Source of the DNA: Levilactobacillus mulengensis
Lineage (GTDB): Bacteria > Bacillota > Bacilli > Lactobacillales > Lactobacillaceae
Reading direction: 5' to 3'
DNA length: 64,000 nt
NCBI RefSeq assembly: GCF_003946045.1
Contig: NZ_RHNW01000009.1
Coordinates: 1 to 64,000, forward strand
The notes under the pieces are model-generated. The model was not told the origin of the DNA and ran no database searches. It saw nothing but the letters and a program-made list of their open reading frames with translations. This document shows positions 11,601 through 49,559 of the stretch, piece by piece. The translations under genes and the position numbers were made by a program. Every line of letters starts with the position of its first letter. Position 1 is the first letter of the stretch.

Positions 11601-11780
11601 GCCTCCGGGCTGGTGAAAATGGGCCGTGACGCTGTGGGCGCGCGCCTGGAGCCAAAGGGCGGTCTCCAGGCTTACTTTGAGCCACTGAGAAACGTGTCTC
11701 AAAGATAGCAGTTACCTAAGCGGGAGACCCGCTAAGGTAACTCCCACGGCTGAGCCCATTTTCACCAGCCCTGCGGCTGA
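11601..11780 (+). repeat. Family 1 structured repeat, subtype A (copy 1)
   Basis: About 180 bases with nested helices: P1 GGCTGGTGAAAATGGGC with its complement at 11753-11769, P3 GCCTGGAG/CTCCAGGC, P4 CTTTGAG/CTCAAAG, P5 AGTTACCT/AGGTAACT. The P3 loop contains the family-wide GCGGT. It starts about 28 bases after the oxidoreductase stop and before the terminator at 12040, so it should be transcribed in the 3' UTR. The flanks form an imperfect inverted repeat reaching the end of the coding sequence (TTACT, AGC and AAA blocks). Confidence 0.8.
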
Positions 11781-11800
11781 TACTGGTTTAACCCGCTGAT

Positions 11801-11945
11801 TTGCGAGTAACTGAGCCACTGCGTATAGCAGTTTTGGGTGGGCAAAGATGGGCCTGGTCGTGTCTGTTCCCGGTGGCGGATTCAAAGCGCCTCTGGTCAC
11901 GCCCACGACCGGCCCAGTTTTTCCAGCCCTGCGGCTACACGGTTT
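11801..11945. repeat. Family 1 repeat fragment, internally deleted
   Basis: A degenerate hairpin (GGGCCTGGTCGTG / CACGACCGGCCC) encloses a fusion of the two ends of a subtype B element: GTTCCCGGTGGCGG joined to GCCTCTGGTCAC. Its outer sequence ends CCAGCCCTGCGGCT like subtype A. It looks like a deleted B copy nested in an A remnant. Confidence 0.5.
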
Positions 11946-12039
11946 TAGCCTGCAGAGTAGATGAATGTGGTCTATTTGTGTGTCACTGTAGTGGGCCAGC
12001 GCGTTAACTTAGTTTTAATGTTTTGTCATTAAATTAATG

Positions 12040-12082
12040 GGTCCATTCACTTCAGGAAATTTGAAGTGGCTGGGCCTTTTTG
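12040..12082 (+). terminator. Terminator-like hairpin
   Basis: The stem GGTCCATTCACTTC / GAAGTGGCTGGGCC, with G-T pairs and one mismatch, is followed by TTTTT. It is the first plausible end for the oxidoreductase transcript, placing the repeats at 11.6-11.9 kb in its 3' UTR. Confidence 0.6.
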
Positions 12083-12265
12083 TGGTTGATTTGAGATTAG
12101 CTGTTCAGAAGTTGAACCGATATCGCTATAGTGACTGTCGCTACAATGTTTTAACCTCGAAATTTTACTAGTTTGCGTGGTTACCCAAGTAACTGAATGG
12201 TTAGCGGCCATCACCGCTTCGTGAGCGTGGTACACTAGCGGCAATTCCAGGAGGGGGACTGGCTA

Positions 12266-12454
12266 ATGTGGGGGTTAGAACGGAAAAAGCGCGTGTGCAG
12301 TTTTCTATTTAGTTGGTTTTTGTTATTGCCCGCAACGAGTTGGTTACTGACTTATCCGCGTCAATCCATTATGGATTTGACGGCGGAGGGGCTAGCCATT
12401 TTGTGGGGATTGTTAGTTTTAGGCTGGTCCTGTCGGCCACAACATCAGGCATAG
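12266..12454 (+). CDS. Small hydrophobic protein, unknown
   Basis: 62 residues, ATG preceded by AGGAGGGGG at 12249-12257. Two hydrophobic stretches (FLFSWFLLLPATSWLL and LAILWGLLVLGW) predict a two-segment membrane protein with both termini inside. No family recognised. It is a single gene ending just before a hairpin terminator. Confidence 0.55.
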   Translation: MWGLERKKRVCSFLFSWFLLLPATSWLLTYPRQSIMDLTAEGLAILWGLLVLGWSCRPQHQA

Positions 12455-12461
12455 CTGACTT

Positions 12462-12495
12462 AAGCATCACCAGAAAGTTTCCGGTGGTGCTTTTG
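12462..12495 (+). terminator. Terminator after the small membrane gene
   Basis: AAGCATCACC / GGTGGTGCTT stem with an 11-base loop and a weak TTTTGTGTT tail. Confidence 0.65.
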
Positions 12496-12554
12496 TGTTG
12501 CCCAAATGTGGCGTATGATAGTATTTATTAAATTTTATTGAAGGAGGGATCCGC

Positions 12555-13736
12555 GTGGCATTTCTAGGAACGTTGTGTTTAATCCTGGTACTGACGACGC
12601 TGGCGGGAAACTTAGCGAACCGCCTGGGCGTTCCAGCAGTTATCGGGGAGTTGCTAGTAGGTATCATCGTGGGACCGGCATTGCTAAACTGGGTACAGCT
12701 CAACAGCTTAGTTAATTTATTTGCCGATATCGGGGTGGTGATTTTGATGTTTCTCGGGGGGCTGGAGAGCAATCTGCAGTTACTGATGAAATATCTACGC
12801 CCGGCCATTGTGGTGGCAACCTCCGGCGTCATTTTTCCGGTGACGCTGATGGGGCTGACGTCTTGGTGGTGGGGCTTTACACCGTTGGAATCCCTCTTTA
12901 TCGGGGTGATTTTCTCCGCCACGTCCGTTTCCATTTCCGTCGCGGTGTTGAAGGAATATCACGCCCTGACGACGCGGGAGGGCGCCACGATTCTGGGGGC
13001 GGCCGTGGCCGACGACATTATCGGCGTGGTGCTCCTGTCCTTGATGATCAGCCTACTGGCTAGTCAGGGAATCGAGACGGCCGGGAGTCAGCCAGCGCTG
13101 GCCTTGGTCTTGGTGGAGCAGGTCGCGTTCTTTGGCGGCACGTACATCCTGGTTAAATGGGTGGCCCCCTACTTAATGCATTTGAGCGAACGCCTGGTGA
13201 TGGCGTCCAGTGTCACCATCATGTCGATGGTCATCTGCCTCGGTATGGCCTGGATTGCCAATTTGGTCGGCTTGAGTGGGGCGATTGGCGCCTTCTTTGC
13301 CGGCATCGCGGTGGCCCATACGCCATACCGTGCCGTGTTGGCCGACCACGTGGAACCGCTGGGCAATGCCATTTTCATTCCGGTCTTCTTCGTGAGTGTT
13401 GGATTAAATATGACCCTGAACCATTTAGCGGATAACTTAGGCATCATCGCAATCTTAACGGTGTTGGCCTGTGTGACCAAGCTGATTGGTTGCGGCCTGG
13501 GTGCTCGCTTGAGTGGGTTTACCATGGGCAGCAGTACCGTGATTGGGACCGGGATGATTGCCCGGGGCGAAATGGGCTTGATCACCGCGCAGATTGGTCA
13601 TCAGGCCGGTTTACTCGGTGGCAGTGACTACTCCGCCATGATTCTGGTGATTGTTTTGGCTACCGTCATCGCGCCCCTGTTATTGAAACAGGCATTGAAA
13701 CGCATGCCAGCGGGCCGGCCAGAACAGGCGGTCTAA
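12555..13736 (+). CDS. napA: Na+/H+ antiporter, CPA2 (NapA-like)
   Basis: 393 residues. The GTG start at 12555 follows AAGGAGGG. Around twelve membrane segments are visible. The ion-binding helix carries the double aspartate GAAVADDIIGVVLL at about residues 150-163, as in electrogenic CPA2 antiporters, and a conserved segment RGEMGLITAQIGHQAG is near residue 337. It should exchange cytoplasmic Na+ for H+ at the membrane (pH and sodium tolerance). No regulatory KTN domain is attached. It forms a single-gene unit with a strong terminator downstream. Confidence 0.85.
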   Translation: MAFLGTLCLILVLTTLAGNLANRLGVPAVIGELLVGIIVGPALLNWVQLNSLVNLFADIGVVILMFLGGLESNLQLLMKYLRPAIVVATSGVIFPVTLMGLTSWWWGFTPLESLFIGVIFSATSVSISVAVLKEYHALTTREGATILGAAVADDIIGVVLLSLMISLLASQGIETAGSQPALALVLVEQVAFFGGTYILVKWVAPYLMHLSERLVMASSVTIMSMVICLGMAWIANLVGLSGAIGAFFAGIAVAHTPYRAVLADHVEPLGNAIFIPVFFVSVGLNMTLNHLADNLGIIAILTVLACVTKLIGCGLGARLSGFTMGSSTVIGTGMIARGEMGLITAQIGHQAGLLGGSDYSAMILVIVLATVIAPLLLKQALKRMPAGRPEQAV

Positions 13737-13760
13737 CAAGTATAGTCGAATAAATTAATT

Positions 13761-13803
13761 AAAGGCCTGGCTAAATTCGTGATGAATTTAGCCGGGCCTT
13801 TAA
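13761..13803 (+). terminator. Strong terminator after napA
   Basis: AAAGGCCTGGCTAAATTC / GAATTTAGCCGGGCCTTT, an 18-base near-perfect stem with a 5-base loop. It is symmetrical enough to act in both directions. Confidence 0.85.
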
Positions 13804-13965
13804 ACTTAAGGGAGCCAAAATGGCGGTAAGATTGACGTGAATACCAGACAACTAACTAGGCTGAGCAAGCAGGTTAAGGTGTAAAAACCAATAAAACGAG
13901 GCAGTCCAATAGAATAAAAGGGGCCAAAGCCAGTCTGCAGTACTGGGGGTCTACGGCCAGTTTAA

Positions 13966-14149
13966 GTGACCAGAGGTGGGCCAAGTTGGCCAGCTGTGTC
14001 GGTGTTCTTGGCTGGGGTCCTTTCCCAGCCTAGAACACGGGACGACCTTTGAGACTGTGACCTTTCAGGCTCAAAGTCGAGGTGGAAGACCGCTTCTCAG
14101 TCTGGAACCGACCCCATAGCAGGCCCACTTGAGCCCACCGCCGGGAACG
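13966..14149 (-). repeat. Family 1 structured repeat, subtype B (copy 2)
   Basis: It begins GTGACCAGAGGTGGGCCAAG and ends CCGCCGGGAACG. The outer helix is GGTGGGC-CAAGT with ACTTG-a-GCCCACC, and the apical GGCTGGG pairs with CCCAGCC. It contains GACCGC (GCGGTC on the minus strand) and the conserved CAGCTGTGTCGGTG. Orientation is set by GCGGTC. The rest of 13804-14266 holds no gene. Confidence 0.78.
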
Positions 14150-14266
14150 CCCCAGAACCAGCCCTAGAAATGCCCAGTCCAGTGAAAGACTTGCTTTATC
14201 GGGGGAAGACGCGTAAATTTAGGGAAAGCTAGACGCAGCGCGGAACATTTCACGGGAGGAATAATC

Positions 14267-14728
14267 ATGAAGAAACCCTATTTTTTAATCGGATTGGCAG
14301 CCGTCACCCTCGGCTTAACGGCGAACAATCTGTCGTCAGCCCAAGCCGCAACGTGGCACGCAGGGACACCCAAGGTTTTGCGCCACACCTGGTTTTACAA
14401 CGGTAAGGACGACAACAAGGCCTACATCACCTACAGCAAGTCCAAGAGTACGGGGAACTTATTTGGCTACGATAGCACCAGCGAACGCTACTACCGGCTG
14501 CCGGGGTATGGCTTGAAAAAGCTGAAATATCAATCCTTAGGCAAACACGTTTACCGGTTGTCCGGGATTCAGTATTCGCCCAAGGGCAGTCAGGTCCAGT
14601 TTGACGGGCAGCGCATGACGTACAAGGTCAAGGTGACCAAGCAACACCTGCACTTCTACAAGGGTTATAAAAATTATGTCCGCAAGGCAACCTTCGCCAC
14701 CATGAAGGCGCCCACCGGCTTATCATAG
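14267..14728 (+). CDS. Secreted protein of unknown function
   Basis: 153 residues with GGGAGG 8 bases before the ATG. A signal peptide (MKKPYFLIGLAAVTLGLTA, cleavage near SAQA) precedes a basic, Tyr-rich mature part (YNGKDDNKAYITYSKSK, YYRLPGYGLKKLKYQSLG). Such small secreted lactobacillar proteins with high predicted charge usually stay near the wall. No domain recognised. It is a single gene with its own terminator. Confidence 0.7.
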   Translation: MKKPYFLIGLAAVTLGLTANNLSSAQAATWHAGTPKVLRHTWFYNGKDDNKAYITYSKSKSTGNLFGYDSTSERYYRLPGYGLKKLKYQSLGKHVYRLSGIQYSPKGSQVQFDGQRMTYKVKVTKQHLHFYKGYKNYVRKATFATMKAPTGLS

Positions 14729-14736
14729 GTCAAAAT

Positions 14737-14774
14737 AAAGTCTCACCAACAATTTCTGCTGGTGAGACTTTTTC
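14737..14774. terminator. Convergent terminator
   Basis: AAAGTCTCACCA / TGGTGAGACTTT with T tail, between the secreted-protein gene and the 3' end of helD. It probably serves both. Confidence 0.85.
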
Positions 14775-14781
14775 ATATCGA

Positions 14782-17088
14782 TTAATTTTGAAATTCGTGT
14801 TCGATCGTGAGGTCTGACGCGGGAATCTTGTTGGAGGCAATCAGCGGGGAGGCCGCGCCGATGCACAACAGGGTCAAATGGTGCATGGCCCGCGACGCAA
14901 TCGTGTAGAGCGTTCCGGTCAGCTGCTCATTGGGATAATTCTCCGCGGACACGTTGTAGGCGATGACGCTGTCGAACTCGAGGCCCTTGGCCAGGTAGAT
15001 TGGCAGGACGACGATGCCCTTCGGCAGGGAACGGTCGGTGTCCGTCAGCCGCGTGATGTCGAAGTCGCGGTGGAGTTCCTGGTAAACGTACTTGGCCTCC
15101 GCCGTGCTCTTGGTCAAAATGGCCACGGTGCCGTTGGTCGCCAGCTCTAATTTCAGCTCGTGGGCCAATGCCTTGAACGCCGCTGCAGCATCGTAGCGGA
15201 TGATGACCTTCGGCAGGTCGCCCGGCCGGTTGAAGGCCTCAATCTGGTCACCGTCGGGCAGGAGGGCCTTGGCAAAGGTGGTGATGGGCAGCGTCGAGCG
15301 GTAGGATCGCCGCAACGTGATCAGTCGTGACCGCTTGACGTTCAACGCGGCATCCAACTTTTTCAAAATGGCTTCCGGGGCTTCGACTGCCTTGAATAGG
15401 GCCTGTTCGCTGTCGCCCAACAGGGTGAGCTTGGCCCGCGGGAAGGCATGTTGCAGGTAAATCAATTGGGCCATCGAATAGTCCTGCATCTCATCGACAA
15501 ACAGGTGCTGCATCCGGTGATTGGCCCCGCCACCCGCGAGAATGTCCCGCAGGTAGAGCAGCGGTGCCGCGTCTGTCAGCGCCAGCCGGTGAAACTCGAT
15601 GTCGTGTTGGTAAGCAGCGATGACCGTTTGCCAGTCGTCAGCGGAGACGTCATCTGGCAGGGGACACTGCTGCAGAAACGCCGTGTACTGGCTATAGGCG
15701 TCCAGAAAGTAGCCGTTGTAAATGGCATCGTCGACCGACCGCAAGCGCCGCCGAACGATTTGGCGGGCGATGAAGTCAATTTCATCGTCCAACTGCTCAA
15801 ATTGGCCGAGGTGTTTTTCTCCCAACAGGTTGTGGTAATCCTCATCGCTGAGTTGATCGATGGTGTCACGGACCCAGTCCTCCTTGGCCTCGTCGGCGAT
15901 GCGGTGCTTGAGCCGCTTTTCCAGGGCATTCTTGGTCCGGAGGAGGCGGTCGGCCGGCGCCGTGGCGTCTGGAAATTGGCTGTAGATGTCCCGAATTTCT
16001 TCCTTACTGAAGAAGACACGGCTCTTGAAGCGAATGTCCGTGAATTTTAAATCGGCCGGTGAACACTGGTAACAGTAGTCCTTGACCGCCGTCATCATGG
16101 CCGCACTCTCCCGGAAGTTGCGCAGGGGGAGGTTGACCGGCGTTTCCTGGTCGGCTTCGTAGCGTTCAAATTGCGTTTGCACGTTGAGTCCCTGGAACCG
16201 TTGCGTGAGAAATTCTGCCAACGTGACCTGCCGCATGTTGCGCTCACCCAGGCTAGGGAGCACGTCGCTGATGTAGTGACTGAACAGGCGATTCGGCGAG
16301 AACAGGACGATTTGGTCCGCCTCTAGATCCCGCCGACTGTGATACAGCAGGAAGGCGATTCGCTGTAAAATGGCGGACGTCTTGCCGGAACCCGCGACCC
16401 CTTGGACCACCAGGAGGTCACTCTTGGTATCGCGGATGATGTCGTTTTGTTCCCGTTGAATGGTCGCCACGATATTTTGCATGGTGGCGTCGTTTTGCTC
16501 GCCCAGGGCATGCTGGAGCATCTCGTCACCCACGGTTTCGTTGGTGTCGAACATGCTCTCGATTTGCCCATTTTGAATCAAAAATTGCCGTTTCTTTAAG
16601 AGGTCGGTCTGCTGGTCGCCAGCGGGGGTGCTATAGGCGACCTTCCCGAGGACCCCGTTGTAGTAGATACTGGAAATGGGGGCGCGCCAGTCGTAGACCA
16701 GAAAGTTCTGGTCATCGTCGACGAATGAGGCGGTCCCAATATAGAGGGACTCGGACTGCGTTTCACCCGGATCCTGGATGTCGATGCGGCCAAAGTAAGG
16801 GGACTTTTGGAGTTCCTTAAAAGTATCCAATTGGTCTTGAATAATGTTTTGGTTTTCAGTCAGCCGGGAGACCAGCGCCCGTTGCTGTTGCAGTTCAGCA
16901 CTGGTTTCGATTCGGTCATCGACTTCAAACCAGTTGACCGAGGTGTTTTCACTATAATTCTGCAGGACGTTGCGCAGTTCTTGGTGCGCGGCGTTGTAGT
17001 CGGCATCGGTCTTCGCGATACGCTTACCAATTTCATTTGCCACGCGGTCGACACGCTGTTGTTCCTGTGCTTCTTCGCTGGTGGTCAA
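14782..17088 (-). CDS. helD: HelD, RNA polymerase-recycling helicase-like ATPase
   Basis: 768 residues. The TTG start at 17088 is 7 bases downstream of AAAAGGAGG. The N-terminus is a charged coiled coil (about residues 1-100), as in HelD proteins, whose arm enters RNA polymerase. A UvrD/Rep-type superfamily 1 ATPase follows: Walker A GVAGSGKTSA near residue 233, Walker B-like HLFVDEMQDYS, motif III-like LTLLGDSEQALF, and C-terminal KGLEFDSVIAYNV. HelD removes stalled RNA polymerase and sigma from DNA at the cost of ATP. It is a single-gene unit on the minus strand with a family 1 repeat about 60 bases upstream. Confidence 0.88.
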   Translation of the reverse strand: MTTSEEAQEQQRVDRVANEIGKRIAKTDADYNAAHQELRNVLQNYSENTSVNWFEVDDRIETSAELQQQRALVSRLTENQNIIQDQLDTFKELQKSPYFGRIDIQDPGETQSESLYIGTASFVDDDQNFLVYDWRAPISSIYYNGVLGKVAYSTPAGDQQTDLLKKRQFLIQNGQIESMFDTNETVGDEMLQHALGEQNDATMQNIVATIQREQNDIIRDTKSDLLVVQGVAGSGKTSAILQRIAFLLYHSRRDLEADQIVLFSPNRLFSHYISDVLPSLGERNMRQVTLAEFLTQRFQGLNVQTQFERYEADQETPVNLPLRNFRESAAMMTAVKDYCYQCSPADLKFTDIRFKSRVFFSKEEIRDIYSQFPDATAPADRLLRTKNALEKRLKHRIADEAKEDWVRDTIDQLSDEDYHNLLGEKHLGQFEQLDDEIDFIARQIVRRRLRSVDDAIYNGYFLDAYSQYTAFLQQCPLPDDVSADDWQTVIAAYQHDIEFHRLALTDAAPLLYLRDILAGGGANHRMQHLFVDEMQDYSMAQLIYLQHAFPRAKLTLLGDSEQALFKAVEAPEAILKKLDAALNVKRSRLITLRRSYRSTLPITTFAKALLPDGDQIEAFNRPGDLPKVIIRYDAAAAFKALAHELKLELATNGTVAILTKSTAEAKYVYQELHRDFDITRLTDTDRSLPKGIVVLPIYLAKGLEFDSVIAYNVSAENYPNEQLTGTLYTIASRAMHHLTLLCIGAASPLIASNKIPASDLTIEHEFQN

Positions 17089-17201
17089 ACTGACCGCCTC
17101 CTTTTGCTAGGCTAAAGTGCCTAACAAGTTTAGTCATATTCCCCGGCCGTGTCAATCAATCCCCCTTCGATTGTCGCCATTTTTCTGTTTGGGGGTGGTT
17201 T

Positions 17202-17374
17202 CGCCTCCGGGCGGGGCTAAATAGACCGTGACGCTGTGGGCGGACGACTGGAGTCAAAGAGCGGTCTCCAGTCTTGCTTTGAGCCTCAAGAAGCGAGTCT
17301 CAAAGTCACCATTTCCTGAGGTACCCTCAGGAAATCCCACGGCTGAGTCTATTTAGCCCCGCCCTGCGGCTGAC
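17202..17374 (+). repeat. Family 1 structured repeat, subtype A (copy 3)
   Basis: P1 here is GGGCGGGGCTAAATAGAC / GTCTATTTAGCCCCGCCC, an 18-base perfect helix whose sequence differs from copy 1. P3 is GACTGGAG/CTCCAGTC and P5 is ATTTCCTGAGG/CCTCAGGAAAT. Outside it, CGATTGTCGCCA (17168-17179) and TGGCGACAATCG (17388-17399) extend the palindrome. Confidence 0.82.
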
Positions 17375-17437
17375 GGTGGCGGAGGTTGGCGACAATCGGA
17401 GTGGGATTAGGCTAACACTTTGTTCTCCTTTAGATGG

Positions 17438-17586
17438 ATGTGGTGGGGAGGACGCTCCGAGCCTGAGGAGCGGTCTCGGGACTTGCTTTGAGCCTCGAAG
17501 ACCGAGTCTCAAAGTTACCATTTCCTGAGGTACCCTCAGAAAATCCCGCGGCTGAGCCTATTTTGAACCACCCTGCAGGGCTGACG
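17438..17586 (+). repeat. Family 1 structured repeat, subtype A, 5'-truncated (copy 4)
   Basis: It has P3, P4 and P5 of copy 3 with small changes (P3 GAGCC..GGTCTCGG region, P5 ATTTCCTGAGG/CCTCAGAAAAT), but the left arm of P1 is absent. Its 3' flank (GCGGAAGTTGGCGACAATCGG) repeats the 3' flank of copy 3, so it arose by tandem duplication. 17105-17794 holds no gene apart from these repeats. Confidence 0.75.
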
Positions 17587-17794
17587 GCGGCGGAAGTTGG
17601 CGACAATCGGTGTGGGATTGGGCTGACACTTATTTCTATTACAATTTATTCAGCAGCATACCAATTTTCCAGATGATAAGTTATCCTTACGATGTAAGCG
17701 GTTTTATGGTACGCTTATGTTGTCCCATTAGTTTTATATTCTGTGATACATAAGCATAGTTGTCGTTTCTCTGAGATTGGAAAGGATGATTTGA

Positions 17795-18799: not shown

Positions 18800-18949
18800 C
18801 GTTATCAGCACTTATTTAATGTGTAGGCCGGGACAAATAAGTCACGTAAGTCAGCCCAAATTGAGTCGTAACCGCCAACGCTTTCAGTATAAAAATCTTT
18901 GTGGAAGTTACCAGTTTACTTTACCCGAAAAAACCTCTAAAATAAGGAA

Positions 18950-19162
18950 ATAGAACTTGATAAAAGTAGGCCAACATTAGAGAAAAACCGCTCGTGCTGA
19001 AACGGTTTTACGGCCCAAATGGGTCAAGCAAGTTTCATTTAATCGATAATTAATTATCGCGGTGTCGCCGTTATTGACGAGAGTGGTGGTCCCAACGACC
19101 ACAAATTAGGTGGTACCGCGCACGAGCGTCCTATTGGCAATTGGCCAGTAGGGCGCTTTTTC
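18950..19162 (+). promoter_or_regulatory. Tryptophan T-box leader of trpS
   Basis: The T-box sequence AATTAGGTGGTACCGCG is at 19104-19120. It is followed by a terminator stem (19124-19158, AGCGTCCTATTGGC / GCCAGTAGGGCGCT) and a T run. The base of stem I pairs AACTTG (near 18955) with CAAGTT (19029-19034). A TGG specifier lies at 19020-19022, just upstream of the stem I 3' strand, matching tryptophan. Uncharged tRNA-Trp should favour the antiterminator and turn trpS on. The specifier position is my reading; the T-box itself is unmistakable. Confidence 0.92.
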
Positions 19163-19178: not shown

Positions 19179-20198
19179 ATGAGTAAAAAACACGTGATTT
19201 TAACTGGAGACCGACCAACGGGTAAGCTACATATTGGGCATTACGTGGGGTCATTGAAGAACCGGGTCGCTTTGCAAAACACCGGTGATTACGATACCTA
19301 TATCATGATTGCGGACATGCAGGCCCTGACCGACAACGCCCGGGATCCCGAAAAAATTCGCCACAGCCTGTTACAAGTCGCTTTGGACTACCTGGCCGTG
19401 GGTATCGACCCTGCCAAGTCCACGATTTTGGTACAATCCCAGATTCCTGCCTTGAACGAGCTGACCATGGCTTACCTGAACCTGGTTTCCGTTTCTCGGT
19501 TGAACCGGAACCCAACCGTTAAGAGTGAAATTAAGCAAAAGGCCTTTGGCGAAAGTGTGCCGGCTGGCTTCTTCATCTACCCAGTCAGTCAAGCCGCTGA
19601 TATCACGGCGTTCAAGGCCGATACGGTCCCAGTTGGGGAAGACCAAGAACCGATGCTGGAACAAACGCGAGAAATTGTGCGGAGCTTCAACAATATCTAC
19701 CAACAAGAGATTCTGGTCGAACCCGAAGGCTACTTCCCACCGAAGGGCCAAGGCCGGATTCCCGGCTTGGATGGCAACGCCAAGATGAGTAAGTCCCTCG
19801 ACAACGCCATTTACCTGGGCGATAGTGCTGACACGATTCAAAAGAAGATCATGTCCATGTACACGGATCCAGAACACATTCACATCGAAGATCCTGGCCA
19901 TATCGAAGGCAACACCGTGTTCACCTACCTCGACATTTTTGCCGACGACCGGGAACACGTTGAAGAATTAAAGGCCCAATACCAACACGGTGGCCTGGGT
20001 GACGTGAAGATCAAGCGGTACTTGAACGAAGTCTTACAGGCTAAATTACAACCGATCCGCGAGCGCCGTGAAGCCTTCGCTGCCGATGAGGGCGCCGTTT
20101 ACGACATCCTCAAGCAGGGGAGCGAAAAAGCTAACCAAGTTGCCGCACAGACCTTACGTGAAGTTCGGCACGCGATTGGCATCGATTACTTCGGTTAG
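19179..20198 (+). CDS. trpS: Tryptophanyl-tRNA synthetase
   Basis: 339 residues, the usual length of bacterial TrpRS. AGAAAGGAAG precedes the ATG. The class I signatures are present: [11 protein letters not shown] near residue 15-25 and KMSKS ([11 protein letters not shown]) near residue 203. It charges tRNA-Trp with tryptophan in the cytoplasm. Expression is controlled by the T-box leader directly upstream. The ppx gene follows after 20 bases, so read-through into a ppx-mvaA unit is likely. Confidence 0.96.
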
Positions 20199-22413: not shown

Positions 22414-23394
22414 GTGAAAATAAACAGTATGCAAGCAAAAGATGTCAAATTAAATAAAGAGGTTCAAAGCCTGTTAGATCAAGTTAATGCCATCTACCCA
22501 GGCAAGGTTGAGGTCCAATTTATTGGGGAACTGCAAGCCGGTTTCGTGCGGCATGACCAGGCCCAACAGATGCAAATGGGCAAGGACATCGCCATTCAGG
22601 TGGCCGATTTGACCGCGCCAAACTACACGGCCTCTCACGAACTGCTCCATTTGTTAATGATTCTATCCGGGTTCCCCCAGGTCTTCTTCTCCTTGACGAC
22701 CGGCCAACCCCAACTCGACGAACAACTGATGATCATGGGCACCGAGCTGTATGATATCGTCAGCCACGAAGTCGTGGTCAGCGAACAACGCAAGCACCAT
22801 TTAATCGACGACCACATCAAGGATTTATACTTGAAAGGGGTCACGGCAACCATTAAGCCAGAGCCCAACCCAGTTGATGACGAAATGACGTTGCGGACGT
22901 TGACCTTGCTGGATGCTTTAGTCTTCTTCGGTACCGACGACCAAGACCTGATGGCCCAATTCACCAAGGATTATCCCATCAGTTTCGCTGCTGCTCAGAA
23001 GCTGTATAAAGTTATCACGGAAAAGCCAGTCGACTCACCATTTAGCCTGCGCCGGAACGTGGTCAAGCTGTTCAAGGCCTTCGATGCCCAACTGGAAGCC
23101 TGGAACCTGCCAGCTCTGCACAACACCGAGTTCACAACGTTAACCAGTGTCTTGTCCAAGCGGCAATTGAGCTTACAGGTCAAGCAGATTTTTGAGCTGT
23201 ACCATTCAGACATGCATGAGAAGACCACGCAACGCCGCGGCTACGTCGGCTTCAATCACGCCGACGAACAAAACGCGTTCGTGCTCCCAGCACCAGCGCC
23301 CAAGGATGATACGCCAGAGTACTTCACGAAGATTTACAGCATGACGGTCGAAGAACTCTTCAAGCAACTCAAGATGCCATACATCTTGCGGTAG
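22414..23394 (+). CDS. Cytoplasmic protein with HExxH motif (annotated IpaB/EvcA family in lactobacilli)
   Basis: 326 residues from the GTG at 22414, preceded by AAAGGAATAG and adjacent to the mvaA stop. An ATG five codons later is possible. No signal peptide or membrane segment. A metallopeptidase-like NYTASHELLHLLM motif (HELLH) lies near residue 75, with histidine-rich stretches after it (VSHEVVVSEQRKHHLIDDHIK). I recall such lactobacillar proteins being labelled IpaB/EvcA, a name without functional evidence in these bacteria. A zinc-dependent peptidase is possible but only the motif supports it. It is translationally coupled to mvaA by position. The last codons lie in the outer arm of a family 1 repeat. 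Confidence 0.6.
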   Translation: MKINSMQAKDVKLNKEVQSLLDQVNAIYPGKVEVQFIGELQAGFVRHDQAQQMQMGKDIAIQVADLTAPNYTASHELLHLLMILSGFPQVFFSLTTGQPQLDEQLMIMGTELYDIVSHEVVVSEQRKHHLIDDHIKDLYLKGVTATIKPEPNPVDDEMTLRTLTLLDALVFFGTDDQDLMAQFTKDYPISFAAAQKLYKVITEKPVDSPFSLRRNVVKLFKAFDAQLEAWNLPALHNTEFTTLTSVLSKRQLSLQVKQIFELYHSDMHEKTTQRRGYVGFNHADEQNAFVLPAPAPKDDTPEYFTKIYSMTVEELFKQLKMPYILR

Positions 23395-23404
23395 CGGCTA
23401 GGTT

Positions 23405-23590
23405 TCGCCTTACCGGGCGGGCAAAATGAGACCGGAACGCTGGGGCGGACGTCCCAAGCCTGAGAAGCGGTCTTGGGACTTACTTTGAGCCTCCAAGGGC
23501 GAGTCTCAAAGATACCAGTTCTCTAGGCGGCCTAGCCGCCAAGAGAACTCCCACGGCTGGGCTCATTTTGCCCGCCCTCACGGCTGACAC
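23405..23590 (+). repeat. Family 1 structured repeat, subtype A (copy 5)
   Basis: P1 GGGCGGGCAAAATGAG / CTCATTTTGCCCGCCC, P3 GTCCCAAG/CTTGGGAC, P4 CTTTGAG/CTCAAAG, P5 AGTTCTCT..GGCGG / CCGCC..AGAGAACT. P1, P3 and P5 differ in sequence from copies 1 and 3 but all still pair. It starts 10 bases after the stop codon. Beyond P1, CATACAT.TTGC..AGCG in the last codons pairs with CGCTAGCAACATGTATG downstream (23594-23610). 23395-24380 holds no gene. Confidence 0.82.
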
Positions 23591-23875
23591 TGGCGCTAGC
23601 AACATGTATGCCTATTCAGCTAGATTGCAGTATGACACTAGTTTTCATTGAGTTGGCAGGATGTATTTTGAACTTTACGAAAAGAATCCGCGACAATCAG
23701 CTGAAACCAGCATACAATGAGAGCGAAATCTGTTTACGATTCGATTGATTTTATGCAAGTGTTAGTCATTGTGGTATGAAGAATGTTGGTTGAAATCTGT
23801 ACACTGTGCCTGACATAAGTACAGATGTAATCAGACCAACGAACTGAAGTAACGTTAAGTTAGATGGACCATGTT

Positions 23876-24060
23876 AGTGACCAGAGGTGGGCCAAGGTGA
23901 TCAGCTGTGTCGATGGTCTTGGCTGGCGTTCTTTTCCAGCCTAGAGCATGGGACGACCTGAGAGACTGGTGATTTTCCAGGCTTTCAGGCGAGGTGGAGG
24001 ACCGCTCCTTAGGCCGGAACCGGGCCCCACAGCAGGATGGCTTAAGCACACCGCTGGAAA
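23876..24060 (-). repeat. Family 1 structured repeat, subtype B (copy 6)
   Basis: Minus-strand B copy: GTGACCAGAGGTGGGCC at the left end, CAGCTGTGTCGATGGTC, then GACCGC and CCCCACAGCAGG. The right end is eroded (CCGCTGGAAA in place of CCGCCGGGAACG). The outer helix is poorly kept, so this copy may be decaying. Confidence 0.7.
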
Positions 24061-24155
24061 CAACATAGCATAAAGTGAATCTTAGTTGGCTTTACGGCTG
24101 AATAGGGGGACCTTTGTACTTTAATGCTAGCTTAAAATGATAGGGCTAGTGTCAG

Positions 24156-24336
24156 CGACCAGAGGCGGGTCAAGTTGACCAGCTGTGTCGATGGCCTTAG
24201 CTGGGGTTCTTTCCCAGCTTAGCCCATGGGACGCCCTTTGAGACTTGGGTTTTAGGCTCAAAGGCGAGGCGGAAGACCGCTTTCCAGGCTGGAGCCGGGC
24301 CCCACAGCAGGGCTGCTTGAACCCGCCGCCGGGAGC
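24156..24336 (-). repeat. Family 1 structured repeat, subtype B (copy 7)
   Basis: Well-preserved minus-strand B copy. The outer helix GGCGGGT-CAAG pairs with CTTG-a-ACCCGCC. The apical AGCTGGG pairs with CCCAGCT and CTTTGAGACT with the AGGCTCAAAG side. It ends 45 bases before the sirtuin gene, so it may lie in that gene's 5' leader. Confidence 0.78.
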
Positions 24337-24380
24337 GAAAGTCGCACGTGTTTTAAGATATGGATTTGATTTAAGAAGGG

Positions 24381-28518: not shown

Positions 28519-28539
28519 GGGTTACCTTCTGCTGCGCCG

Positions 28540-28722
28540 CGCCTCCGGGCTGGTGAAAATGGGCCGTGGCGCTGTGGGCGCGCGTCTGAAGCCTGAGAAG
28601 CGGTCTTCAGACTTACTTTGAGCCTCTGAGAAACGAGTCTCAAAGATAGCAGTTGCCTAAGCGGTAAACCGCTAAGGCAACTCCCACGGCTGAGCCCATT
28701 TTCACCAGCCCTGCGGCTGACA
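28540..28722 (+). repeat. Family 1 structured repeat, subtype A (copy 8)
   Basis: Close relative of copy 1. P1 is identical, but P3 is GTCTGAAG/CTTCAGAC (GCCTGGAG/CTCCAGGC in copy 1) and P5 is AGTTGCCT/AGGCAACT (AGTTACCT/AGGTAACT), which are compensatory changes. Flanking ACGTCAG and CTA.GGGTTA across the metG stop codon pair with TAACCCGTAG and CTGACGT downstream (28728-28749). Confidence 0.82.
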
Positions 28723-28816
28723 TGGTGTTAACCCGTAGCTCACTGACGTAGGTGTTGGCAATGGCGGATGGTATTGTTAGCATGCCACACATAGCTTGTG
28801 GAGTGTTAGGTATTCC

Positions 28817-28951
28817 AGCCTGTGAAGTGGGCTTCCACCTCAACTTTGCGCCTGAAAAGCGGTCGCAAAGGTTGTCCCATGGGCTAAGCTGAGAAAATCG
28901 CTCAGCTAAGACCATCGACACAGCTGGTCACTTTGGCCCGCCTCTGGTCAC
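28817..28951 (+). repeat. Family 1 structured repeat, subtype B, truncated (copy 9)
   Basis: Plus-oriented B copy without its first ~50 bases. It contains GAAAAGCGGTCGCAAAG, TCCCATGGGCTAAGCTGAG with CTCAGCTAAGACCAT, CGACACAGCTGGTC and CCGCCTCTGGTCAC. It is sandwiched between two copies of the same subtype A 3' flank. Confidence 0.72.
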
Positions 28952-28962
28952 TAACATTGACT

Positions 28963-29045
28963 GCGTGGCCCATTTTCACCAGCCCTACGGCTGACATAGT
29001 GTTAACCCGTAGCTCACTGACATAGGTGTTGGCAATGGCTGATGG
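28963..29045 (+). repeat. Fragment of subtype A 3' end with duplicated flank (copy 10)
   Basis: GTGGCCCATTTTCACCAGCC repeats the P1 right arm of copy 8. The next ~60 bases repeat the flank at 28722-28781 with four or so changes. A segment was duplicated and a B copy now lies between. No gene lies in 28519-29229. Confidence 0.7.
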
Positions 29046-29229
29046 TATTGCCAGCTCAGCATAACTGCATATAGTCTGTGGGCTGGTGGCAGTAACACCG
29101 GTAGCCAGTAGGGGTAACACTTCACACAAACAAAATAAAACCATAACCAAAACGTGGGCGGCGGATCGATGAGACGCCGGCTGCGTTTTGTTCGTTTACT
29201 AAATCAAACTAAGGTAAAGGAGAATGACG

Positions 29230-41144: not shown

Positions 41145-41192
41145 TGGTCCGCAAGCTCATTCCTTGGGTTTGCTGGGCCACTTTTCTTTTTT
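41145..41192 (+). terminator. Terminator after xylR
   Basis: AAAGTGG.CC.GCAA pairs with TTGC.GG.CCACTTT, then TTCTTTTTT. Confidence 0.8.
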
Positions 41193-41226
41193 AGACTGGT
41201 TTGGGGATGGGGTTGTATGTGATTTG

Positions 41227-41412
41227 CCGCCTACGGCCTCTGGGGACTCCGCCTTCTGTGGGGAGCGCTTGCGGCCTGCGGGGCGGTCCTCCAGCTCGGT
41301 TTGAAGCCGGGAAATCGCCGTCTCCAAACACGTCCCATGGTGTAAGCCCGGGGAAGTTCACCCCGGACTAACACCATCGACACAGAAGACTGCGTCCCCA
41401 GCTGCCTGCGGC
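41227..41412 (+). repeat. Family 1 structured repeat, subtype B variant (copy 11)
   Basis: Outer GGGGACTCCGC.TTCTGTG pairs with CACAGAA.CTGCGTCCCC. It contains GGGCGGTCCTCC, GGTTTGAAGCC with GTCTCCAAAC, and CCCATGGTGTAAGCCCGGGG with CCCCGGACTAACACCATC. TAGACTGGT (41193-41201) and ACCAGTCTA (41430-41438) extend the stem by a perfect 9 bases. 41193-42223 holds no gene. Confidence 0.78.
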
Positions 41413-41513
41413 TCTTGGTTGTGGCCCGACCAGTCTAGGGGTTCGGGGCCCAACAAACCAGTCTGGCTGGTTCTTGGCTTCACTAGTTTGGAGATTGGGT
41501 TGTGAATGACTTG

Positions 41514-41700
41514 ACGCCTGCGGCCTCTGGGTACTCCGCCTTCTGTGGGGAGCGCTTGCGGCCTGCGGGGCGGTCCTCCAGCTCGGTTTGAAGCCGAAAG
41601 CCCGTCGTCTCCAAACGCGTCCCATGGTGTAAGCCCGGGGAAATTCGCCCCGGACTAACACCATCGACACAGAAGGCTGCGTACCCAGCTGCCTCCGGCT
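41514..41700 (+). repeat. Family 1 structured repeat, subtype B variant (copy 12)
   Basis: Tandem duplicate of copy 11, offset by 287 bases including flanks. GGGGAC/GTCCCC of copy 11 is GGGTAC/GTACCC here, a clean compensatory pair change, and AGTTCACC becomes AATTCGCC in the apical loop. Confidence 0.8.
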
Positions 41701-41917
41701 CTTGGTGGCGGCCCGACCAGTCTAGTGGTTGGGGACTAAGTAAGCAGGTCTGGTTGGTTTTTGAATTTGCTGGTTTTGCTGGTGAAATTGGCTAGTGACT
41801 GTGTCCGGACTGGTCTAATTGAGTGTGAATCATTAAATTAGCTAATTAATGTGTCACTGTGATGAACAGAAAGATGATGTCATTCAAGGCTGTGGTGAAA
41901 GTCAGGCGTCCATATGA

Positions 41918-42105
41918 GTGACCAGAGGCGGGCCAAAATGACCAGCTGTGTCGGTGGTCTTAACTGAGTGGACTTCTCAGTTTAGAGCACGGGACGACCT
42001 TGGAAACTCGCGGTTTTAGCGAGGCTTCAAGTCGAGGTGAAAGCCCGTACCCCAGGCTGAAACCGGCCCCACAGCAGGGCGTTTTGAGTCCGCCGCCGGG
42101 AACGG
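41918..42105 (-). repeat. Family 1 structured repeat, subtype B (copy 13)
   Basis: Minus-strand B copy. The outer GGCGGGC-CAAAA pairs with TTTTGAGTCCGCC and the apical AACTGAG with CTCAGTT. The loop motif is degenerate (AAAGCCCGTACC where others have GACCGC). Confidence 0.72.
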
Positions 42106-42137
42106 ATGGTCACGCTTAGTTTCACCCTGCCCACCGC

Positions 42138-44825: not shown

Positions 44826-45036
44826 TTAAGGAGACAACTCACCCTATTTTTTCAAGTGAATTAGTGGCACCAGTGACAAATTTTCGGTACAGTAAGGGTA
44901 GAACATTGGCCAGGGATTGTTGCAATTACAGATATTTGGTCAACCAGTAAATGCAACAAGACCAATGACCTGAATGAGTGACGCGGGGGAAATAGGCGTT
45001 GATCGTAGAAATTGTGGAAATGGATAATCAATGTGA

Positions 45037-45234
45037 GTGACCAGAGGCGGACCAAGGTGTCCAGCTGTGTCGGTGGTCTTGACTGAGTGATTTTCTCAGT
45101 CTAGAGCACGGGACGACCTGAGAGACTGGTGGTTTTCCAGGCTTTCAGGCGAGGTGCAGGACCGCTCCCCAGGCCGGAACTGTTCCCCACAGCAGGGCAT
45201 CTTGAAGGGCATCTTGAGGCCGCCGCCGGGAACG
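45037..45234 (-). repeat. Family 1 structured repeat, subtype B (copy 14)
   Basis: Minus-strand B copy. The apical GACTGAG pairs with CTCAGTC and the CTGAGAGACTGG arm with CCAGGCTTTCAGG. It has an internal 12-base duplication (GGGCATCTTGAA twice, 45196-45219). 44826-45314 holds no gene. Confidence 0.75.
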
Positions 45235-45314
45235 GCAAGCCACCACAATTCATTTTCACGATTTCGAAGACAACACCAATTTAGCCCGTATTAAGTAGAA
45301 ATGGGGTAGTGATG

Positions 45315-46306: not shown

Positions 46307-46316
46307 AAATTTTTAG

Positions 46317-46363: not shown

Positions 46364-46396
46364 GTTTGGTTCGAGGTCCAGTGAGACCGACCAAAC
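46364..46396 (+). promoter_or_regulatory. PyrR-binding RNA hairpin in the pyrD leader
   Basis: GTTTGGT pairs with ACCAAAC around an internal bulge and GGTC/GACC, with loop sequence GAGGTCCAGTGAGACC. This matches the PyrR anti-antiterminator consensus (AGTCCAGAGAGGCT type). No intrinsic terminator lies between it and the GGGAGG site at 46423-46428, so control is more likely at translation or elongation than by classical attenuation. Confidence 0.75.
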
Positions 46397-46434
46397 GTTT
46401 TCAGCAAGACATTAACGTATCACGGGAGGATATT

Positions 46435-47358
46435 ATGTCGACAATTAGTGTGCAGTTACCCGGGCTTGATTTGAAGAACCCCATCATCCCAGCGAGCGGG
46501 ACGGCGGCTTACGGCCAAGGCCTGGCCCAACATTTTGATTTGAATGAACTAGGGGCGCTGGTAATTAAATCCACGACGCTGGAACCTCGAACTGGCAACC
46601 CCAAGCCCAACGTGACGGAAACGCCGGCGGGGTGGATGAACGCCATCGGTCTGACCAATCCGGGCATTGAAGCCGTGATGGCGGATCGCTTACCGTGGTT
46701 GGCCGTGCACTACCCAGACCTGCCCATCATTGGCAGTGTGGCCGGCAGCACGTTTGCCGAGTACGTGGCGGTGGCCCAGCGGCTGACCCAGGCGCCCAAC
46801 GTGCACGCCTTAGAGGTCAACATTTCCTGTCCCAACGTGGCGGCCGGGGGATTAGCCTTTGGCACGGATCCCGAGTTGGTCCACGACCTGGTCGCCCAGG
46901 TGGTGGCGGTGGCCACGAAGCCGGTCTACGTTAAACTAACGCCGAACGTGACGGACATCACGGCAATCGCCCAGGCAGCGGTCGCGGGCGGGGCCAGTGG
47001 CCTGACGATGATCAATACGCTGACCGGACTCCAGCTAGATTTGACCACGCGGCAACCGACCCTGAGTAACGGCACGGGTGGCTTGTCTGGTGCGGCGATT
47101 CATCCCTTAGCCGTTCGCATGGTCCACCAAGTGCGTGCCGTGACGGATGTGCCCATCATTGGGGTCGGCGGCGTCATGCGGCCGGAAGATGCCATCGAAT
47201 TCTTCCTAGCAGGTGCTAACGCCGTGCAGGTCGGGGCGGCCACGTACGGCAATCCCTGCGCCTGTCGCGACATCGCCCGGGCACTACCGGCAACGCTGGC
47301 GAAATATCATTTGCCGGACCTGATGACGTTGACGTGGGAACAGGCGGACCGAAGATAA
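46435..47358 (+). CDS. pyrD: Dihydroorotate dehydrogenase, class 1
   Basis: 307 residues from ATG 46435 behind GGGAGG. Class 1 motifs: FMN/substrate segment KSTTLEPRTGNPKPN, catalytic-base cysteine in LEVNISCPNV near residue 130, LTPNVTDI near 168 and IIGVGGVMRPEDAIEFFLAG near 240. It oxidises dihydroorotate to orotate in pyrimidine synthesis. Overall it looks like the 1B subclass, which pairs with PyrK, but no pyrK or other pyr gene is nearby. Expression should respond to UMP/UTP through the PyrR hairpin. Terminated on its own. Confidence 0.9.
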   Translation: MSTISVQLPGLDLKNPIIPASGTAAYGQGLAQHFDLNELGALVIKSTTLEPRTGNPKPNVTETPAGWMNAIGLTNPGIEAVMADRLPWLAVHYPDLPIIGSVAGSTFAEYVAVAQRLTQAPNVHALEVNISCPNVAAGGLAFGTDPELVHDLVAQVVAVATKPVYVKLTPNVTDITAIAQAAVAGGASGLTMINTLTGLQLDLTTRQPTLSNGTGGLSGAAIHPLAVRMVHQVRAVTDVPIIGVGGVMRPEDAIEFFLAGANAVQVGAATYGNPCACRDIARALPATLAKYHLPDLMTLTWEQADRR

Positions 47359-47378
47359 GTGTGAATAAGAATCAGGTA

Positions 47379-47420
47379 GGGACCTCAGAAATCTTTTCAG
47401 GATTTCTGAGGTCTCTTTTT
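47379..47420 (+). terminator. Terminator after pyrD
   Basis: GGGACCTCAGAAATC / GATTTCTGAGGTCTC 15-base stem with TTTTT tail. Confidence 0.9.
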
Positions 47421-47502
47421 AACCTACGAGTAAAAAGTAGAATTTGCGTGGTGCACCTAAAGTTATTTGATGGAACAATCGAAAAAATTAAAAATATTAT
47501 CA

Positions 47503-47531
47503 TTGTTTTTTAATAAAGTCAAGTGTACACT
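47503..47531 (+). promoter_or_regulatory. Candidate promoter of the MFS gene
   Basis: TTGTTT (47503-47508), 17-base spacer, TACACT (47526-47531). It leaves a 130-base AT-rich leader before the next gene. The -10 lies in GTGTACAC, a perfect 8-base palindrome. Confidence 0.45.
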
Positions 47532-47670
47532 AAGCTAAAACGTATCAAATGTTATTTAATTAAATCCCATGGCTGTGCAGGGAATAGGTGAATAATGCGT
47601 AAATGATAGTTTCAAAATGTAAGTCGAAGATAAGTGAAAATGAGAAAATAAGAGCATGAGGAGGGTGCGT

Positions 47671-48918
47671 ATGATTAATGCCTTGAAGAGCAGATCGGTC
47701 GAGGTCCTATCCTTGGCCAATATATTTGAAACCTTAGGGGTTAGTATCTTCAATATTGTTTTACTGACGTATGCGAAGACCTACGCTAATCCAGCAATTA
47801 TGGTATCAGTTGTCTCGATTGCGACCGTGGTGCCGGGAACTCTGGGATTTGTGATTGGCTTTTTAGCGGATCACGTCGTTCACAAAGATCGTATGCTAGT
47901 TTTGACCAAGGTGATTCAAGCCGGGTTGTATCTGGTATTGGCCCTGGTGATTGATGCACGCACACTGGTTATCTTTACGGTTGTCGTGGCCATTAACTTA
48001 GTCTCGGATTGTTTGGGATTTCTGAGTAGCAGTCTACGTTTGCCAATCATTCGCGAACGGGTAGCCAGAGACGACCGCCAGCAAGTTTTAGGGTTAAACC
48101 AGAGTATTGCTTCCCTCTTACAACCGGTCGGCCAGTCGATTGGGGTTTTCGTGCTTGCGGCGACGCATGATTACGCACTGGCTGCTTTGATTAATGCCGG
48201 GACATTTCTCATTGCAGCGCTGATTCTCTTCATTGGACGGCGAGCCATTCACATCGCGCCGGCTGTTATCCCGCAACCTCAGACCGAAACAGAGAAGGGT
48301 CCTAACCTGTGGCAAAAAATGAGTACGATTCTAGGCCAGTCTTCAGGAGTCAGCATCGTCCGGTTACTAGTGGCGGTAGTGATTGTCAATGCAGTGGGGG
48401 CTAGTGTGGATGCGGTGATTAACCTCTACTTGTTAGATCGGGGTAAAGCAACTGGGCTGCCGTTTGGCGTTGCCATTTTGATTGTGAATATTTTGTTTGT
48501 CATTGGTACCGTGTTGGGCAGTACGCTGCGGTTGAAGTTTCTTGATCGCCAATCGTTCAAGCTAGTGATGGTGGAAACGATTGCGGTGATGGTCGTCCTT
48601 TACCTAAACTTCTTATGGATTCAAAATTATGCGCTGCTGGTAATCTTGATGTTCGCCATTGCGTTTGGCTTGGGCAACATGAACCCCAAGCTCTATGCGC
48701 AGGTAATTAGCATTGCCTACCAGAACCTAGTGGGCACCATCTTCGGTACGGTCAGTTCACTGGTTACGGTAGCCGCACCGGTCGGGAGTGTCGGCATTGT
48801 ATTGATTTACAACGCGGTTTCGCCGGCCGCCGCATATTGGGTGTCAATTGTGATTTTAGTGCTGGGTACGGTGATTTTACTGACGGGTAAATCAACCAAG
48901 CCGGCAGAGACTGTTTAG
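47671..48918 (+). CDS. MFS transporter
   Basis: 415 residues from ATG 47671, 6 bases after GAGGAGGG. Around twelve membrane segments. The cytoplasmic loop GFLADHVVHKDRMLVLT after segment 2 is an MFS signature. ANIFETLGVSIFNIVLLTYA and the central loop rich in charged residues (PQPQTETEKGPNLWQKM) suggest a macrolide/multidrug-efflux-like member (MefA/MFS_3 type). The substrate cannot be assigned. Codon use appears slightly more AT-rich than neighbours. Monocistronic. Confidence 0.8.
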   Translation: MINALKSRSVEVLSLANIFETLGVSIFNIVLLTYAKTYANPAIMVSVVSIATVVPGTLGFVIGFLADHVVHKDRMLVLTKVIQAGLYLVLALVIDARTLVIFTVVVAINLVSDCLGFLSSSLRLPIIRERVARDDRQQVLGLNQSIASLLQPVGQSIGVFVLAATHDYALAALINAGTFLIAALILFIGRRAIHIAPAVIPQPQTETEKGPNLWQKMSTILGQSSGVSIVRLLVAVVIVNAVGASVDAVINLYLLDRGKATGLPFGVAILIVNILFVIGTVLGSTLRLKFLDRQSFKLVMVETIAVMVVLYLNFLWIQNYALLVILMFAIAFGLGNMNPKLYAQVISIAYQNLVGTIFGTVSSLVTVAAPVGSVGIVLIYNAVSPAAAYWVSIVILVLGTVILLTGKSTKPAETV

Positions 48919-49003
48919 GCACTCTCAGTTCAACGAATCTCCAGTAGGTGTGCTTGATTTGGAGTGGTCAAATCAGTAGAGTTCTTTCATAAAGTAATCA
49001 ACG

Positions 49004-49034
49004 AGTCAGTCCACCAGTCGGGCTGGCTTTTTAC
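49004..49034 (+). terminator. Terminator after the MFS gene
   Basis: AGTCAGTCC / GGGCTGGCT stem (two G-T pairs) with TTTTT. Confidence 0.65.
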
Positions 49035-49071
49035 ATTTGTGCAAAGTTTCTCCCCCGTCGACCGAAAGCTG

Positions 49072-49123
49072 TTGACAAGTTTTCAATTTCTGGTAAACTA
49101 CTAAACGGTAATCATTACTGTTT
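49072..49123 (+). promoter_or_regulatory. Promoter and Zur-type operator of the zinc ABC operon
   Basis: -35 TTGACA (49072-49077), 16-base spacer, -10 TAAACT (49094-49099). At 49103-49123 AAACGGTAAT-C-ATTACTGTTT forms a 21-base palindrome with one mismatch and the core GTAATcATTAC, matching Gram-positive Zur boxes. It covers the expected start site. The operon begins 480 bases further on; repeats fill much of that leader. Confidence 0.8.
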
Positions 49124-49299
49124 ACATAAAAATATGGTTGTTTAAACGTTCTGGTTAGTATGCCTATTCGTGTCAGAATAATAATCATGCGAATAGTTAG
49201 TTTGCCTACACGTTGCCTAGTGTTTCCGACCTAATGGTGAAGAATAGCGCCAGAGCTTAAGCGATACCTAACGCTGATTCTTGATTGGTGCACCACCGT

Positions 49300-49485
49300 A
49301 GCCGCAGGCAGCCAGGGATGGAGTCAGCTGTGTCGATGGTGTTAACGGCTGTTCTTTAGCCGTTTACAGCATGGGACGACTTGAGAGACTGCTGAACTTT
49401 GGCAGGCTTTCAAGCGAGATGGAAGCCCGCTCTTTGGCTGGAATCGGGCCCCACAGCAGGCGGAATCCCTGGAGGCCGGAGGCGG
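49300..49485 (-). repeat. Family 1 structured repeat, subtype B (copy 15)
   Basis: The outer CCAGGGAT pairs with ATCCCTGG, the apical AACGGCT with AGCCGTT. It has CAGCTGTGTCGATGG and CCCCACAGCAGG. It lies in the leader between the Zur box and the zinc ABC genes, so it should be part of their mRNA if the promoter at 49072 is used. Confidence 0.75.
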
Positions 49486-49490
49486 CTGAG

Positions 49491-49559
49491 TGAAGGACCA
49501 TTTCACAGGCTGGAACCGTTCCCCACAGCAGGGCACTTTGAGCCCACCGCCGGGAACGG
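49491..49559 (-). repeat. Family 1 subtype B fragment (copy 16)
   Basis: This is the right third of a B copy only: AGGCTGGAACCGTTCCCCAC, AGCAGGGCACTTTGAGCCCA and CCGCCGGGAACGG. It is fused directly to the end of copy 15. Confidence 0.7.

Follow-up and report, generated by a model that had tools for sequence, protein, structure and literature searches.

REPINs, doublets of REP sequences that form hairpins and are mobilized by RAYT transposases, are miniature non-autonomous DNA elements that occur in many copies and in tandem clusters, with end units in inverted orientation and compensatory changes between the hairpin arms (PMC3116915), and their units reportedly carry a GTAG-type tag (PMC3733652). 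The bacterial repeats ERIC, RUP, Correia/NEMIS and YPAL/RU-2 are intergenic, structured and mostly bounded by terminal inverted repeats (PMC2229807), and in sponge mitochondria repetitive hairpin-forming elements have spread through intergenic DNA (PMC2800124). Hairpins are also reported to be created and repaired by template switching, in which copying of the reverse complement accounts for compensatory changes and for inverted copies (PMC8794818). The RAYT and the tag aside, the element described here is like the repeats and hairpin elements in the respects just listed and would, on the reading proposed below, share its reverse-complement copying with template switching.

We analyzed a 64,000-nt stretch of Levilactobacillus mulengensis DNA (contig NZ_RHNW01000009.1, positions 1 to 64,000; hereafter the window), in which an initial annotation had noted a multi-copy intergenic element. 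Target duplications are a signature of how DNA moves, and in the standard list of mechanisms we know of none that copies its target in inverted form. We show here that the element is a many-copy insertion, absent at orthologous sites, that in about half of the copies of its subfamily A some 15-60 nt of the left flank recur, inverted, beside the 3′ end, and that A copies follow the direction of replication. The family is probably one of mobile, non-coding DNA hairpins that insert via replication-linked fold-back (template-switch) synthesis. Whether this amounts to a new mode of DNA mobility, in which fold-back insertion at replicating DNA leaves an inverted rather than a direct flank copy so that a new insertion forms a long, perfect hairpin with host gene sequence in it, we regard as an even bet; if true, the inverted target copy would signal a mechanism that can be tested in a food-associated lactic acid bacterium. 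Among the titles and abstract openings searched, none describes this element or inverted flank copying, and PMC12306157, searched for lactobacilli, Firmicutes and similar words alone, gave one table entry and no lactobacilli.

Inverted copies of the left flank

The unique sequence right of A copies is similar to that on their left once the latter is reverse-complemented. We tested 45-nt windows, each beginning 8 nt out from the element anchors, against a null of shuffled pairings that keeps the shared element consensus. The results show that 45 of 82 A copies lie above the 5% null level (4.1 expected; p 4.7e-27), and that 24 of the 82 score at least 11 (0.1 expected). For subfamily B, 31 of 53 copies score at least 8, compared with 5.4% of the null. 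In the first flank test, none of 787 element-free gene tails scored at least 10, versus 9 of the 82 A copies. Within the window, the A copies at 17196, 23400 and 28536 pass clearly, and those at 11589 (p 0.09) and 17442 (truncated; p 0.82) fail. The excess fades past ~60 nt, and with 150-nt windows an inverted copy longer than 60 nt is not supported. Direct flank similarity of A copies equals the null (p 0.17), that is, no direct target-site duplication was found for A; a small excess of direct similarity exists for B (3/53 versus 2.6% of the null, p 0.004) and Bx (p 0.045).

Element-free orthologous sites show that the inverted copy goes with the element. At each of two sites, in 30 of the 35 Levilactobacillus genomes, the gene tail was scored against the reversed 300 nt downstream (only 90-141 nt at loci L167, L199 and L207). 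At site 1 (C1:99995), five same-strand elements start no more than 30 nt from the gene end and give the five highest scores, namely 17, 17 and 16 for three A elements and 13 and 12 for two C elements in other species; 20 element-free loci score 6-11, and five loci with more distant elements 8-9. At site 2 (C12:135445), three adjacent A elements score 15-17 and 24 element-free loci 6-10. Counting both sites, an inverted copy of the gene end accompanies 8 of 9 directly adjoining elements and none of the 44 element-free loci. Pre-existing palindromes as the target are ruled out at these two sites by the element-free orthologs.

At metG, whose protein is 99% identical to that of L. lanxiensis, a Levilactobacillus near the host, the window scores 15 and L. 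lanxiensis 16, and six other relatives score 7-10. The metG terminator directly follows the stop codon in L. angrenensis, L. andaensis and L. fujinensis, and in the window the element intervenes; a terminator-like hairpin stands after the element at metG, site 1 and site 2. Since the copied stretch includes sense codons, the native sequence is the one on the left and its copy the one on the right, a polarity seen at three sites with a known empty state. The region 23394-24371 of the window, ~975 bp with three elements, corresponds to a gap of ~10 bp or less in the alignments with L. andaensis, L. fujinensis and L. brevis. A single close pair has a site that looks empty; there CGC both closes the inverted arm and opens the native right flank, as a return by microhomology would predict, although this site may be a deletion in G021. 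As for recent insertion polymorphism, the inspected presence/absence differences among the host genome (G000), G012 and G021 have the appearance of core exchange, deletion or tandem change, one ambiguous site aside.

The element family and its distribution

A copies are ~185-200 nt long, with a long end stem P1 followed by P2 (GCTGTGGG/CCCACGGC), which encloses P3, with a GCGGTC loop and a bulge, P4 (CTTTGAG/CTCAAAG) and P5. The loop bases are conserved in the A core, and the stems listed in the initial annotation were all located in the sequence. Terminal inverted repeats, a feature of miniature inverted-repeat transposable elements (MITEs), are present and extend outward (GGGTTAAA..GTCAGC / GCTGACACTGGTTTAACCC). 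B copies combine an A-like core with another P1, and some of them have A-like outer ends. Three related subfamilies, A, B and C, have the core in common, and remnants occur besides (Table 1). At least 14 copies had been claimed, and profile searches (nhmmer) recover 14 of the 14 listed; those listed at 13966, 23876, 24156, 41918, 45037 and 49300 are on the minus strand, and those at 17438 and 28817 are 5′-truncated. All window copies and remnants lie between larger open reading frames (ORFs). No named class had been recognized, and Rfam matches the elements neither at the gathering score (whole window) nor at E<=5 (11000-50000).

Profiles built from the window copies and from those in 400 kb of host sequence were run on a host sample of 1.264 Mb (the window together with 60 stretches of 20 kb; 41% of the 3.11-Mb genome), which yields 271 non-overlapping copies or fragments at E<=1e-5 (86 A, 147 B and 38 C), of which 213 exceed 100 bits; scaling up this sample extrapolates to several hundred copies per genome. 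In the search of other genomes that the initial annotation had proposed, a covariance model finds the family in 29 of the 35 Levilactobacillus genomes (the host's among them), at 1 to at least 102 places in each. Under stricter filters, 3 of 148 genomes sampled across the order match, one being the host's own and the other two having one weak match each. No A match at E<=1e-5 was found in plasmids and phages, nor any B match in plasmids, although records near the host genome may be missing there. Furfurilactobacillus milii L041 may hold relatives outside the genus, since the B and C profiles match it weakly at four places (24-43 bits) within 22 kb.

Genomic context was recorded for 234 copies with a score >60 and two neighbours (210 with a score >100). 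Insertion often appears to take place just after genes. A gene lies within 50 nt of the 5′ end in 100 of 210 copies and within 50 nt of the 3′ end in 4 of 210, as expected if the right side holds the copy, and 34 of the 43 A copies that directly follow a sense gene begin no more than 30 nt past its stop. Judged by GC skew, 61 of 83 A copies have the leading orientation (p 2e-5), as do 22 of the 30 whose neighbouring genes diverge or converge and thus give no directional cue, and 6 of 7 beside lagging-strand gene pairs. B copies without outer ends show the opposite lean, which is not significant (25/65, p 0.08). Orientation set by replication is a trait of single-stranded DNA elements of the IS200/IS605 kind; in the present family A is the one subfamily in which such a bias is significant.

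Whole element units are tandemly duplicated at 41184-41757 (287 bp) and 17235-17640 (~210 bp), and the unit number of such duplications varies among close relatives. At 28694-29055, an 88-nt direct repeat brackets a truncated B copy within the right flank of an A copy; elsewhere too, full A copies are followed by additional A 3′ ends.

Table 1. Element copies, remnants and flank segments in the window
Feature	Position	Strand	Remarks
A copy, full length	11596..11794	+	23 nt past stop of oxidoreductase gene 10224-11573; nhmmer, structure, gene
Native left flank of 11596 copy, upstream gene end with stop codon	11555..11575	+	
Imperfect inverted copy of 11555-11575, right of A copy	11795..11815	-	Score 8, p=0.092, alone not significant; aligned with G021, G012
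B-type remnant, core deleted, ends kept	11820..11950	+	Read by eye; two short profile matches
B copy	13956..14151	-	nhmmer
A copy	17197..17386	+	nhmmer
Left-flank segment, inverted repeat at 17388-17398	17168..17178	+	Copy score 18, p=0.000
Inverted copy of 17168-17178	17388..17398	-	
A copy, 5′-truncated, within tandem duplication	17444..17597	+	Without inverted flank (score 5, p=0.82)
A copy, full length	23401..23599	+	nhmmer
Native left flank, 3′ end of gene 22414-23394 with final codons and stop	23376..23398	+	
Inverted copy of 23376-23398	23592..23612	-	Copy score 13, p=0.000
B copy	23867..24065	-	nhmmer
B copy	24146..24340	-	nhmmer
A copy between metG stop and conserved metG terminator	28537..28734	+	nhmmer
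Native left flank, metG end with stop codon	28506..28518	+	
Inverted copy of metG end	28734..28752	-	Score 15, p=0.000
B copy, 5′-truncated, between 88-nt direct repeats (28694-28781, 28968-29055)	28813..28961	+	nhmmer
Extra A 3′ end	28963..29008	+	nhmmer
C copy in 287-bp tandem duplication	41222..41424	+	nhmmer
C copy, second unit of 287-bp duplication	41509..41711	+	nhmmer
B copy	41908..42107	-	nhmmer
B copy	45028..45237	-	nhmmer
C-type copy	49291..49489	-	nhmmer
B fragment	49490..49573	-	Profile search

The window also holds a second repeat family (GTTAAGCG...CACGTTTC...CCAGGA) with three copies at 52118-52368 and 56271-56322; similar to it is a GTTAAGCGGAACCAGTTGCC stretch that in genome G047 lies downstream of the gene at sites 1 and 2 alike (loci L163 and L190). 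A T-box leader-like match at 18942-19136, whose 65 bits fall short of the Rfam gathering score (93), lies upstream of the ORF at 19179. The 1112-aa ORF at 3299-6637, which contains 18-nt and 27-nt repeats in long arrays, perhaps encodes a repetitive surface protein, and its alignments with G012 and G021 are repeat-shuffled.

Covariation in the stems and its possible origin

The compensatory changes described in the initial annotation lie in real helices of one family; covariation in A and B exceeds both shuffles and a tree-based null. Two A alignments were made after score and length cuts, with 43 and 82 copies. In the former, 98.9% of 1451 core cells are paired, with 173 both-sided changes, 5 one-sided changes and 16 unpaired cells; shuffles give a mean of 45.5 both-sided cells, 0 of 500 reach 173, and slid partners give 12-30. 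The B alignment A2 (40 of 44 copies, omitting one with an internal duplication and three with deletions) has 188 both-sided and 28 one-sided changes, 18 of the latter in one column, and 0 of 500 shuffles are as high; further pair types in B (40) do not exceed shuffles (mean 43.2). The covariation test that had been suggested was run with an R-scape-like script, not R-scape, using one FastTree tree, 20 simulations and an extrapolated tail. Over this null, nine pairs are significant in A, eight of them inside the structure, and six in B, all six inside it.

RNA selection on a given strand is expected to favour G·U. Among the imperfect cells of pairs predicted on both strands, we counted 20 G·U versus 35 A·C in A and 10 versus 22 in B, ratios that lean slightly to the complementary strand; pairs predicted on the forward strand only go in the opposite direction in alignment A2 (G·U 26, A·C 18). 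A weak control, 14 tRNA acceptor stems, gave three G·U and no A·C; RNase P was uninformative on strand-neutral pairs and not used. Structure changes between orthologs were counted in 41 of 47 pairs shared with G021 or G012 (19 A and 22 B, Bx or B?), C copies and pairs >20% diverged being dropped. A stems change as often as unpaired positions (99/966, 10.25%, versus 269/2632, 10.22%), and B stems are somewhat slower (49/786, 6.2%, versus 372/4092, 9.1%). Both-sided changes between orthologs cluster in a few pairs, and some represent exchange of the whole core: at 11589 of the window, G000 and G021 have an A core and G012 a B core, the flanks being shared. Moreover, complementarity continues past the element into unique host DNA.

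Because A·C exceeds G·U on strand-neutral pairs, A stems change at the rate of unpaired sites and the pairing runs into host sequence, selection on a folded RNA is not supported, and it is not the best reading of the covariation. The initial annotation had taken the changing stems as strong evidence for selection on a folded RNA or single-stranded DNA (ssDNA); the covariation stands, the step from it to RNA is unsupported, and ssDNA or a DNA hairpin may be under constraint in the mobile lineage. Template switching by itself is able to keep arms complementary (PMC8794818). Caution is called for with covariation in repeat families, which may arise by DNA template switching and does not require a functional RNA.

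Proposed mechanism, alternatives and related systems

Insertion by fold-back synthesis would proceed as follows. While the target is being replicated, a strand whose 3′ end lies at the left flank would be extended with element sequence, the inverted ends of the element would fold back, and synthesis would go on with the left flank as template, giving the inverted copy, before returning to the target on the right. Such template switching would also keep the arms complementary, and the conserved loop (GCGGTC) and P4 may be recognized by a putative factor. Resident copies would be mostly passive, though many stand in 3′ untranslated regions (UTRs).

A conventional transposase moving an ordinary MITE, with the inverted flanks explained by insertion into existing palindromes, is unlikely. 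Terminal inverted repeats, intergenic location, hundreds of copies and the mild direct-repeat excess in B and in all subfamilies pooled agree with it, and IS200-type Y1 transposases are present in the genome, with five matches of IS200 size in G000 (open frames of 140-146 aa). However, A copies have no direct flank repeat excess, the element-free orthologs have no existing palindrome, and the element-rich G012 gives no Y1 match. The element ends are unlike those of the five IS200 loci, and an IS200 parent was rejected on this ground. Nor was a convincing ORF-bearing copy found: in the 1.264 Mb, 2 of 99 A-type 5′ ends have the next 3′ end 0.6-6 kb away, both weak-scoring (other insertion sequence families were not searched individually).

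A functional structured RNA (3′ UTR or small RNA) under host selection would account for the covariation in A and B and for the conserved loop bases, and the many A copies that directly follow a stop codon, at the three sites examined ahead of a terminator, are probably transcribed. We nevertheless hold it to be quite improbable, given that strand-neutral pairs have no sense-strand G·U excess, that A stems evolve at the unpaired-site rate in orthologs, that cores are swapped at fixed sites, that pairing runs into host coding sequence and that 6 of the 35 genus genomes are without a match. An RNA-mediated, reverse-transcribed element with a self-primed second strand predicts the identical product, the flank likewise being copied inverted, and it would suit an element that is structured and probably often transcribed; G012, G021 and G003, all element-rich, have one or two RVT_1 matches each. 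Yet RVT_1 is found in just 10 of the 35 genus genomes and has no match in G000, for which reason a retro-element was rejected; this route is very unlikely.

Several observations weigh against fold-back insertion itself. Transposition was not observed, and the inverted copy could have formed after insertion; no enzyme or autonomous copy was found in the 1.264 Mb. Significant inverted flanks are lacking in 37 of 82 A copies. With 150-nt windows and gaps freely allowed, the inverted signal is weak (11% of A copies above the null 95% level), and direct similarity is mildly in excess over all subfamilies (9% above that level with 150-nt windows). At site 2, an A-like element 34 nt past the gene (L192) scores only 9, and elements further off (L191 and L198) score 8 and 9. 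The sole near-identical polymorphic site is ambiguous, as the G021 state may be a deletion. Orientation shows no significant bias in B, Bx, B? and C (25/65, 19/30, 18/31 and 15/25), and gene neighbours were called by a simple ORF caller.

Unlike REPINs, the element here is ~185-275 nt long, with a branched core and an inverted host-flank copy; its ends are inverted and palindromic, with the consensus start GGGTTAAA..GTTGTCAGC and no GTAG, and the element-rich G012 has 0 matches to Y1, the dedicated transposase type of REPINs. ERIC, RUP, Correia/NEMIS and YPAL/RU-2 are tabulated with target duplications (PMC2229807), whereas here the flank copy is inverted and A copies have no direct excess. 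The sponge mitochondrial elements differ in belonging to an organelle, and the likeness to them is drawn without a flank comparison. Template-switch mutations are a mutation process, and here the switching would be tied to an element that is dispersed and has a conserved core. Since neither the dedicated transposase of REPINs nor the direct target duplication of MITEs was found as tested, the family may be placed as a new variety of miniature mobile hairpin, whose way of life resembles that of REPINs and of bacterial MITE-like repeats.

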